The notes below the pieces were generated by a model. The model did not search any database, had not been told where the DNA came from, and saw only the letters and a program-made list of their open reading frames with translations. The position numbers were made by a program, and so were the translations under genes. From positions 1 to 64,000 of the forward strand of contig NZ_JAAFIX010000007.1 of the NCBI RefSeq assembly GCF_013297935.1: DNA of 64,000 nt, in the 5' to 3' direction. Shown piece by piece: positions 10,131-13,864 of this stretch. Every line of letters begins with the position of its first letter. The stretch's first letter is position 1. This stretch comes from Rhodoferax sp. (GTDB lineage Bacteria > Pseudomonadota > Gammaproteobacteria > Burkholderiales > Burkholderiaceae_C).

Positions 10131-11654
<1,524 letters not shown>

Positions 11655-11688
11655 GGTGTAAGCAAAGCCCCTTCTTGCCGGAGGGGTT

Positions 11689-11881
11689 GCCAAGCGGCTA
11701 CCCCAAGGGCGCCCACCTCATACTGGAGTACCAGAAATCGGTGGTCACCCTTGGGGTAGCCGCTTGGCTTTTTGCGGTGAGATGGTGGTACACCCACCAC
11801 CCAGCGTCGGGGGCTGTGCGGGCGGACGCCGATTTCTGGTACCCCAGTATGAGGCGGCCGCCCGCACAGCCCCCGACGCTG
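11689..11881. repeat. paired perfect hairpins with mutually complementary loops
   Basis: Hairpin A has 21-bp perfect arms at 11689-11709 and 11748-11768 around a 38-nt loop, and is followed by TTTTT. Hairpin B has 24-bp perfect arms at 11802-11825 and 11858-11881 around a 32-nt loop. The arms of A and B are unrelated. The loop segments 11716-11741 and 11829-11854 are reverse complements over 26 nt with one mismatch, and each contains a small CTGG-N4-CCAG hairpin. A weaker C/G-rich hairpin at 11668-11686 precedes A. The element fills the 264-bp gap between the aldehyde dehydrogenase and the DUF779 gene. Hairpin A alone could be an intrinsic terminator; the loop duplication is not explained by that. 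Confidence 0.9.
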
Positions 11882-11918
11882 CGAGCGCCAATAATCCGAA
11901 AAACAGGAGACAAAAACT

Positions 11919-12293
11919 ATGGTCGACAAAGTAGTAGCCACCCCCGCCGCACTGGAACTGGTGGCCTTCCTCAAAACCAAACACGGCCCCGACCTCATGT
12001 TCCACCAAAGCGGGGGCTGCTGCGACAACAGCGCGGCTAACTGCTACCTGCCCGGTGAAATCACCATGGGTGCGGGCGACGTGTATTTGGGTGACATCGG
12101 CGGCAGCCCGTTCTACATCGGCATCGGGCAATACGAGTACTGGAAACACACCCAACTCATCATCGACGTGATCGAAGGCCACGGCGGCACGTTTTCACTG
12201 GAAGGGCCCGAGGGCAAGGCCTTTCACACCCGCTCGCGCGTGTTCACGGATGCCGAGTTGGCGGAATTGGGAATCCCAAAACCAGCCGCTTGA
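11919..12293 (+). CDS. DUF779 domain protein
   Basis: The 124-residue cytoplasmic protein begins MVDKVVATPAALELVAFLK. It has a conserved Cys/His-rich block HQSGGCCDNSAANC (about 29-42) and the aromatic stretch GIGQYEYWKHTQ. These are the marks of the DUF779 family, commonly encoded next to aldehyde dehydrogenases; its biochemical role is unknown to me. An accessory or metal/redox function for the dehydrogenase is a guess from the cysteines and context. The start has a good AGGAGA site. It lies downstream of the double-hairpin element, so its expression may differ from the dehydrogenase. Confidence 0.88.
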   Translation: MVDKVVATPAALELVAFLKTKHGPDLMFHQSGGCCDNSAANCYLPGEITMGAGDVYLGDIGGSPFYIGIGQYEYWKHTQLIIDVIEGHGGTFSLEGPEGKAFHTRSRVFTDAELAELGIPKPAA

Positions 12294-12302
12294 AATTGGC
12301 AC

Positions 12303-12357
12303 AAAATAGGGCTCTAGCCCCCTATTTCATTGCGCAATCAGCTCCTGATTTCATAGC
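12303..12357 (+). repeat. dispersed ~50-bp repeat, copy 3
   Basis: GGCTCTAGCCCCCTATTTCA, then TTGCGCAA, CAGCTCCTG and TTTCATAGC give an almost complete copy. It fills the gap between the convergent DUF779 and DUF1501 genes. Confidence 0.7.
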
Positions 12358-12358
12358 G

Positions 12359-13864
12359 TCACGCCATAAACTCCATGTCCCACGGGTAGTCGGCCCGGCC
12401 GGCTGGTGTGCCGAAGTTATTGATGTTGGCCAACACCCCCGGCATTTCGGCATCGGTCACCCCGAACCATTTGGCCAAGGTCGCGGCGTACTGATCTACC
12501 GAAGTGCGCGGCAGCAATCGGCCCTGCCCCACATGCCACTGCTCCGCAGCCGAGTACACGCGGGGTGAGCCGGTGCCATCGGTCACGTTGATGGGCGGGG
12601 CTTCGCCATAAAAGCGTTTGCCGTTCACCGCACCACCCACCACAAAATGGTGACTGCCCCAGCCATGGTCTGAGCCGTCCCCGTTGGAGGCGAGTGTGCG
12701 ACCGAAGTCGGATGCGGTAAACGCCGTTACCTGGTTCGCCAACCCCATCTCGTCGGTAGCGTTGTAAAACGCAGTCATAGCGGCACTGACTCGGCCCAAC
12801 AAGCCCCCGTGGTCCCGGATCAGGTTGTCATGCAGGTCAAACCCGCCCATAGAAACAAAGAACACCTGCCGCCGCGCGCCCAGCTGGCTGCGGCCTTTGA
12901 TCAAGCGCGCCACCATTTTCAGCTGCTGGCCCAGAGAGTCGGTGGGAAACACCGTGCTGGGCTCTGCAAGGGCCAGTGCCGTGGTGACGGCAGCTTCGGC
13001 ATCCAGCGCCCGCTTGGTAACGGCGTTGTACTCGTTCTCAAGTTTGTGTGCCCGGTTCTCACGCAGCATGTTGTTAATGGCTGTGGCCACCGCCGCGCTG
13101 CCGTAGACCGTGGAGTTGGTGGCCGGTCTGATCTTGATTGCTCCATTCGTGCTACTGACCTGGTACTGCAACGCAGTATCACCCGACAAAAACACCGCAT
13201 TGCCCGATACCGAGATTGCGGTAAACACCGAGGTGCTGTTCAAGCTGTTGCTCAGCGCCAGATCGCCCAGATTCCCGCCCCAGCCCACGGTCGACCCTTC
13301 GGGTGAGGACGACTGCCAGATACTTTGCTGGTCATTGTGCGAAAAAAGCTGCGGAGGCCGCGGGTTCGTCACCCGGTCGCTGCTGTTGTACTGGGTGCGG
13401 GTGAGTGGCTTGACCAGCGGGCCGACATTGAGTTGCACCGCCATCTTGCCGGAGTTGAACAGCCCGGCCAAGCCTGTCATCGCCGGGTTCAGTGCAAATT
13501 GGCGGGTCGTCTGCCCCTGGCTATCGGTCAATGCCACGGAAGGGCTCAGCAGGGTGGGGGTCAGTGCAGATTTGGCCAGGGCAATACCCCCGGCCGTTTG
13601 CCCCGAGCCACCGCCCCGGATGGTGCTGTAGAGGTTGTAGTTGGCATCGTCGTAGGGGATCAGGGTGTTGGCATAGTCGTTGCCACCGAACAAAAACACG
13701 CACACCAGCGCCTTGTAATCATTGCCCGGGGCGTTGAAGGCAGCCGCTTCCCCCATGGCTGCCAGATTCAAGGCAAAAGGAAGAGCCGTTCCGGTCAAGG
13801 CCAGCTGGCCTGAGCGCCGCAAAAAAGCGCGACGTTGGGGGTTGTGCAGATCGTGAGAATTCAT
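12359..13864 (-). CDS. DUF1501 exported protein
   Basis: The 501-residue protein has a twin-arginine type leader (RRAFLRRSGQLALTG, residues 12-26) ending near MGEAAAF, so export folded by Tat is likely. The body shows DUF1501 features: LVCVFLFGGNDYANTL, VFFVSMGGFDLHDN and FTASDFGRTLASNG followed by DGSDHGWGSHHF. The family is related to alkaline-phosphatase/sulfatase-like folds, and the Asp/His residues suggest metal binding, but no reaction is established. AAGGCGGA precedes the ATG. It lies 10 bp after a DUF1800 gene; the two families are repeatedly found as neighbours, suggesting a common exported system. Confidence 0.9.
   Translation of the reverse strand: MNSHDLHNPQRRAFLRRSGQLALTGTALPFALNLAAMGEAAAFNAPGNDYKALVCVFLFGGNDYANTLIPYDDANYNLYSTIRGGGSGQTAGGIALAKSALTPTLLSPSVALTDSQGQTTRQFALNPAMTGLAGLFNSGKMAVQLNVGPLVKPLTRTQYNSSDRVTNPRPPQLFSHNDQQSIWQSSSPEGSTVGWGGNLGDLALSNSLNSTSVFTAISVSGNAVFLSGDTALQYQVSSTNGAIKIRPATNSTVYGSAAVATAINNMLRENRAHKLENEYNAVTKRALDAEAAVTTALALAEPSTVFPTDSLGQQLKMVARLIKGRSQLGARRQVFFVSMGGFDLHDNLIRDHGGLLGRVSAAMTAFYNATDEMGLANQVTAFTASDFGRTLASNGDGSDHGWGSHHFVVGGAVNGKRFYGEAPPINVTDGTGSPRVYSAAEQWHVGQGRLLPRTSVDQYAATLAKWFGVTDAEMPGVLANINNFGTPAGRADYPWDMEFMA

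Follow-up and report, generated by a model that had tools for sequence, protein, structure and literature searches.

Between an aldehyde dehydrogenase gene (10131..11654, + strand; Pfam PF00171, E 1e-153) and a downstream DUF779 gene (11919..12293, + strand; Pfam PF05610, E 2.1e-38) of Rhodoferax sp., two long hairpins with different stems carry the same short core in opposite directions. What kind of element places one core inside two such palindromes, and how does it come to lie here? A first-pass annotation of the window (the whole stretch of 64,000 nucleotides analysed) had suggested either a mobile hairpin unit or a two-state RNA switch controlling DUF779. The analysis supports the mobile half of this proposal and speaks against the switch. 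We consider it probable (about 0.6) that the two hairpins form a single inverted pair belonging to a REP/BIME-like family of Comamonadaceae repeats.

The hairpin pair and its fold

Hairpin A (11689..11768), seen in the sequence and in the predicted fold, has a 21-bp outer stem without mismatch (11689-11709 with 11748-11768) that extends inward by 1 bp and then by 5 bp, past two mismatches. The + strand carries its core, and the − strand would be the folded strand under selection. Hairpin B (11802..11881) ends 37 nt before the DUF779 start codon and has an equally perfect outer stem of 24 bp (11802-11825 with 11858-11881), extended inward by 4 bp past one mismatch. Here the core lies on the − strand, and the + strand, codirectional with both genes, would be the one that folds. 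When G-T pairs are allowed on the folded strand, the registers of A and B are both 29 positions long.

The first copy of the core, CCTCATACTGGAGTACCAGAAATCGG (11716..11741, + strand), comprises a CTGG-N4-CCAG mini-hairpin and the strands of an internal loop, and is conserved in the 96 hairpins aligned below. The second copy (11829..11854, − strand) is inverted and identical to it at 25 of 26 positions, and the stems around the two copies are unrelated to each other. In each of these structural features, from the perfect stems to the shared core and its mini-hairpin, the first-pass annotation was accurate. A 21-nt version of the core occurs twice in the window at up to three mismatches (0.00 expected), and the RNA fold of 11670-11900 reaches -160.7 kcal/mol (z -13.2), with none of 200 shuffled sequences folding as well. 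Directly 3′ of hairpin A lies TTTTT (11769..11773, + strand), followed by the spacer that separates the hairpins (11774..11801). This tract is a possible intrinsic-terminator tail of the aldehyde dehydrogenase transcript; a terminator consensus scan returned 0 terminator-like sites, probably because it admits loops of 3-8 only.

Architecture of the hairpin and the strand that folds

Related hairpins were collected from other genomes and aligned. From 335 occurrences, clustering at 86% identity left 119; removal of 15 with an extra base near the loop and of four with fewer than 15 of 26 pairs gave 100, and four more (two at L062, one each at L063 and L185) were left out of the final alignment. 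The resulting 96 hairpins align without gaps over 75 columns, 26 of which form the stem. Each unit consists of some 28 bp of hairpin stem, a conserved 5x5 internal loop (5′-GATTT / TATGA-3′) and a 4-bp tip stem, the folded strand reading GATTTCTGGTACNCCAGTATGAGG. Full stems have a median length of 28 bp, and 84 of the 100 fall between 25 and 32 bp.

While stem sequence varies in every column, pairing is retained. Changes on both sides were observed for 28 of 30 pairs, with a covariation score of 0.859 compared to 0.184 for shuffled and at most 0.153 for slid partners. Paired cells make up 93.6% of the stems (a figure that is somewhat high, since the four omitted hairpins pair at 16-17 of 26 in three cases and at 24 of 26 in one), compared to 59.2% when shuffled and at most 46.5% when slid. 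The tip covaries too: among 249 hairpins the tip stem contains CT/AG in 235, GT/AC in eight, CG/CG in one and GC/GC in one, with a mismatch or wobble in the other four. Compensatory changes thus abound, around a core that is found well beyond this locus. A covariance model of the hairpin (R1) matches hairpin A at 11692-11766 (− strand, 80.8 bits) and hairpin B at 11804-11878 (+ strand, 89.7 bits); both sequences are in its training set, so that these matches arise by construction.

The imperfections of the stems indicate which strand folds. On the core strand, 245 of the 249 hairpins (related copies included) contain 352 A-C, 24 G-T and 192 other mismatches. On the complementary strand, the 96 de-duplicated hairpins contain 160 G-T, 10 A-C and 73 others. 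Counted by hairpin, 71 of the 96 lean one way, two lean the other way and 23 are tied. Without a favoured strand, A-C and G-T mismatches would be expected in roughly equal numbers; the asymmetry therefore identifies the complement of the core strand as the folded one. This strand is also predicted to be the more stable in 86 of the 96 hairpins with RNA parameters and in 85 with DNA parameters, and because the bias appears under both, it favours neither RNA nor DNA. G-T wobble also occurs naturally in RNA, which counts against a reading in terms of DNA only.

Distribution, neighbourhoods and turnover

The annotation had proposed to look for the core, and for the arms around it, in Comamonadaceae genomes. 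An exact scan of genome contigs with the 21-nt core found at least 118 stretches, the stems differing between copies. Among the matches listed, the stretches are labelled Rhodoferax, Limnohabitans, Polaromonas, Curvibacter or unnamed Comamonadaceae, Burkholderiales or betaproteobacteria, with Comamonadaceae or their genera predominating. Two contigs labelled Singulisphaera (L058, CALPYQ020000011.1, and L095, CALPYQ020000042.1) carry Limnohabitans-type hairpins, L058 with GGGGTCAGATCAAC ends; they are probably mis-binned contaminants. The exact core was present in 21 of 103 genomes of the window's own genus, beside DUF779 in 18 of these and elsewhere, by comparison of coordinates, in G004, G032 and G072. 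It was present in 12 of 299 genomes of a wider family sample, one of which (G162) has 57 exact copies, and in 46 of 80 genomes of the genus that contains Limnohabitans (g84), with up to 27. Most core-bearing genomes of the own-genus and wider-family samples have one or a few copies.

Under strict filters, the covariance model was positive in five of 300 genomes from the order, and each of these belongs to the same family as the window. In six chosen genomes it matched 62, 27, 22, 17, 6 and 5 times, a maximum in the tens and not the hundreds, and of the six matches in the genome of the window the weakest (E 8e-4) probably arose by chance. More distant hairpins keep the GATTT/ATGA loop with different tips; the window's genome has one at G000:C26:188855 and five inside its uvrA gene, two of which reach the model threshold. 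Searches of plasmids with a 291-nt region and a 35-nt core gave no match. Viral contigs gave no match to the exact core; a looser pattern found at least 120 stretches there, none of the 80 checked (L241-L320) having a stem of 19 or more pairs in 26. Searches of the open-licence PMC literature gave no description of this Comamonadaceae hairpin repeat among the matches listed; it is probably a new REP-like family.

The uvrA copies were found with the looser GATTT...ATGA pattern at a minimum of 17 of 26 pairs. In the window's genome, where the gene was identified by Pfam, five hairpins (two pairs and a solo) lie in linker-like stretches of a 1968-aa open frame. The uvrA-like frames of G008 and G415, recognised by sequence likeness, have one hairpin each in the middle linker, giving seven in-frame hairpins in three genomes; by eye, the G415 protein is without the first insert. 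At L234:1-5908 (G000:C25:52000-58000) the gene product is a UvrA of double length (1968 aa within the stretch retrieved), in which hairpin-encoded peptides such as ASSTRFASSKSA and FAVAQQMHE are repeated in the same frame. Since REPs have been described inside uvrA of other bacteria, as single units and as dimers (PMC3733652), these copies follow a REP habit.

Genomic layout was examined with our own gene calls from codon usage, not those of a standard gene finder (coding fraction 0.82-0.89). The 121 groups with both neighbours within 500 nt lie between 78 tandem, 34 convergent and 9 divergent gene pairs, compared to 160, 41 and 64 among 265 background gaps without the repeat. Divergent gaps are thus depleted (9/121 versus 64/265, p 7e-5) and convergent gaps enriched (34/121 versus 41/265, p 0.005). 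The groups comprise 55 inverted pairs, 64 solo hairpins, one '--' and one '+-+'; two-member groups of mixed strand occur in a single order, 55 to 0. Five groups lie inside predicted genes. Copies are often about 50-120 nt from the end of the preceding gene, and the adjoining genes are unrelated. Solo hairpins between tandem genes lie on the gene strand in 17 cases and on the opposite strand in 17. Against local GC skew, which over a few kilobases is a weak and noisy proxy for replication direction, the orientations of 60 hairpins divided into 28 and 25, with seven weak cases. The combination of a strand-specific structure with no chromosomal strand preference argues for a function at the level of DNA or for a mobile unit.

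The idea that the hairpins delimit a cassette array or a toxin-antitoxin cargo was considered and dropped: by eye, the genes between neighbouring hairpins are mostly ordinary (20 gaps, 33 called genes). Three of the 20 gaps are without a called gene, one of them (L106) holding a likely toxin-antitoxin pair. Such pairs, judged by eye, lie between core hairpins of Limnohabitans-type contigs at L055:3018-4118, L106:3081-4290 and L103:1199-6990, without forming a general rule. At L040:5520-7400 and L063:3380-5430, a DNA methyltransferase gene and a second gene that looks like its restriction partner lie between or beside core hairpins. Genes inserted in a hairpin tip were not seen, since in the 18 candidates the paired arms come from separate copies or from a tandem half.

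Mobility of the unit is suggested by G410, where about 225 bp comprising both hairpins and the spacer occur four times within 6 kb, with flanks that differ from copy to copy. Used as a query with its flanks, this unit gave many matches in the same and other genomes that start at positions 575-594 and end at 808-819 of the query, the others being partial. A clean empty site with both flanks was not obtained; at the one site examined, G463 is without the first hairpin and its left flank, the rest being present.

A search for a mobilising enzyme of the core hairpins found none. A RAYT-type (Y1_Tnp) gene is present in 12 of 13 genomes; it was set aside as the mobiliser, its flanks holding another repeat or none. 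Across 16 RAYT-type loci, no core was found within five mismatches in the fetched flanks, and GGGGTCAGATCAAC flanks the gene within two mismatches in six. In Limnohabitans-type copies the core hairpin lies within a long palindrome ending in GGGGTCAGATCAAC / GGGGTCAGATCAACATTAATTT (a TTAATTT filter listed 38 such copies, of which a few are one-sided). This RAYT-flanking repeat is absent from the window copy and from most of the Rhodoferax and Polaromonas hairpins examined, and the core hairpin therefore does not depend on it. In several core-bearing genomes a single RAYT-type gene lies upstream of an MTTAAEIQ... gene, presumably glutamate synthase, as at L132 (G000:C23:302807-303031); in most of these genomes a GGGGTCAG-like repeat lies near the site.

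Possible traces of stem replacement were observed as extra halves. Among 236 hairpins, extra 3′ halves were detected downstream of six and upstream of none, and extra 5′ halves upstream of none and downstream of one; all six hairpins with an extra 3′ half belong to Limnohabitans-type clusters. In G410, the extra 3′ half behind the present hairpin aligns with the 3′ arm that the related genome G463 retains in its hairpin. Half-hairpins in tandem, spaced by about 41 bp in L217 (9243-9400, 10721-10860), and others in L387, L221 and L394, lie downstream of right-hand hairpins like fossils of earlier stems. Mismatched hybrid hairpins were seen in L010 and L040, the arms in L040 being mismatched as after recombination.

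At the ALDH-DUF779 site itself, a DUF779 match was found in 53 of the 103 genomes of the genus, and the best 30 of these loci were examined, every intact core being scored as a hairpin regardless of stem pairing (L170 A, 12 of 26 pairs; L175 B, 14; L185 B, 16). Both hairpins were present in 14 loci, B only in 13, neither in two and A only in none, with one sequence too short. Hairpin B, in sense orientation, is thus retained more often than A, which counts against the mobile reading. Hairpin B lies upstream of DUF779 in sense orientation in 27 of the 30 (27 of 29 assessable), 80-139 nt upstream in the 21 loci with a located start codon. Among seven further DUF779 loci, two have A only (L038, L047), L064 is unreadable and the rest have A and B or B only. 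By eye, the B stems at this site form about seven lineages, and in L185 (G042) each arm of B resembles a different lineage. Between the window's genome and R. bucti, A is nearly unchanged; B differs at many paired positions with pairing kept. The ALDH-DUF779 copy is best read as an old resident, shared by most of the related genomes examined. The appearance of orthologous copies, old and with their structure preserved, suits a local function as well as mobility, and hairpin B may have a role in the DUF779 mRNA.

The B stems at the DUF779 site, together with the extra 3′ half in G410, suggest that stems may be replaced blockwise, with an exchange at the core and subsequent copying of one arm from the other. 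In such a self-rewriting palindrome a new 3′ half would be spliced in at CCAG/TATGAGG and the other arm then copied by fold-back synthesis, giving stems that are hypervariable yet paired. We offer this scheme tentatively and think it somewhat unlikely; the extra 3′ halves could also have arisen by plain tandem duplication and later divergence.

Explanations and comparison with known repeats

The core recurs at many intergenic sites in many self-complementary stems, and this and the four G410 sites support the mobile hairpin unit that had been proposed. In our model, the one strand reading GATTTCTGGTACNCCAGTATGAGG would be the folded form under selection, and a recombinase or nuclease may act on it as single-stranded DNA (or as a cruciform). 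The hairpins would be spread and exchanged like REPs, independently of the direction of transcription and replication. At the ALDH-DUF779 site, hairpin A with its T-tract may end the aldehyde dehydrogenase transcript, and hairpin B would stand in the DUF779 leader.

The repeat could instead act as RNA, in cis or in trans, with the GAUUU/UAUGA loop as a protein- or metabolite-binding motif in leaders and 3′ ends and its dispersal secondary. The internal loop can be drawn with tandem G-A pairs, G-U is tolerated on one strand, and that strand is the more stable as RNA; the consistent placement of sense hairpin B upstream of DUF779 and the frequent position of copies shortly after a preceding gene are also in keeping with such a role. 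This explanation is nevertheless unlikely. Solo hairpins between tandem genes are evenly split between strands, flanking genes are unrelated, and the same strand is favoured with DNA parameters. No Rfam 15 family scored above its gathering score over 11000-12600 of the window, where four of six sub-threshold matches were to microRNA families. Still less probable are ordinary bidirectional terminators or mRNA 3′ stabilisers that share a tip sequence by chance. An intergenic location, the excess of convergent and rarity of divergent gaps, and the TTTTT after hairpin A would all suit them, but terminators do not need a conserved 25-nt tip, a near-constant stem length, a fixed order within pairs or strand-specific wobble, and the copies within uvrA would cut the gene short.

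A two-state RNA switch, in which two hairpins alternate with one long cross-loop helix to control DUF779, is very improbable. The loops are complementary, as the annotation had pointed out, and the inverted arms are 84% complementary over 44 nt; this is a by-product of the two copies being inverted. Folds of comparable energy were not obtained: the loop-side arms of A and B paired as a free duplex reach -71.5 kcal/mol, compared to -147.5 kcal/mol for the two-hairpin fold of 11689-11881. Moreover, the 13 of the best 30 DUF779 loci that have a single hairpin offer it no partner, and the same hairpins stand beside many unrelated genes, with solos on both strands alike.

The preferred reading, an inverted pair of a REP/BIME-like family, can be set against the superfamilies described in PMC3733652. 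There, GTAG REPs are short palindromes that, like the core hairpins, lie between unidirectional or convergent genes, often as dimers, with G-T pairs in their stems. Their stems are 6-13 bp long and they are linked to a RAYT/TnpA-REP transposase (PMC3733652), and the E. coli enzyme is reported to act on a single-stranded folded REP (PMC8266576). In contrast, the core hairpins lack the GTAG tag (1 of 95 5′ flanks and 4 of 95 3′ flanks of 12 nt each; shuffled means 1.6 and 2.1), have stems with a median of 28 bp whose sequence is not conserved, an internal loop and tip being conserved instead, and are not beside a RAYT-type gene (16 loci). The CGTC superfamily (PMC3733652) resembles them in being reported without a dedicated transposase and in including the Rickettsia elements inside genes; it differs in its stems of 8-9 bp, and CGTC occurs in 8 of 95 5′ flanks (shuffled mean 3.9, maximum 11) and 2 of 95 3′ flanks here. 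A further likeness, limited to Limnohabitans-type copies and not shared by the window copy, is to REPINs (PMC3116915) and TIRtrons (PMC3733652): the end repeat of the Limnohabitans-type palindrome also flanks the RAYT-type gene at six loci, and the GGGGTCAGATCAACATTAATTT repeat fits the TIRtron motif GGGGWSAS given there. By tags, stem lengths and, for GTAG, transposase link, the core hairpins are outside both superfamilies.

Integron attC sites are strand-specific hairpins of variable sequence that are defined by their structure, with the R box at the stem ends, and Rickettsia palindromic elements are in-frame palindromic inserts in protein genes. The core hairpins resemble attC in being structure-defined and strand-specific with variable sequence; they differ in that conservation lies towards the tip instead of the ends of the stem, and that the genes between them are mostly ordinary by eye. 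Unlike the Rickettsia elements, most copies are intergenic, the in-frame ones looked into being those of uvrA. For annotators, the family accounts for a repeat seen between genes in many genomes of the Comamonadaceae. Limnohabitans and Rhodoferax offer a natural system in which to study how long palindromes change sequence without losing pairing, what enzyme or protein recognises the loop and why inserts within uvrA are tolerated. In being intergenic and seldom divergent, in forming inverted dimers and in having intragenic copies in DNA repair genes, the core hairpins behave like REPs. They would add to the REP world a family in which only the structure, a small internal loop and the tip are conserved, and in which the folded strand is unusually clear.
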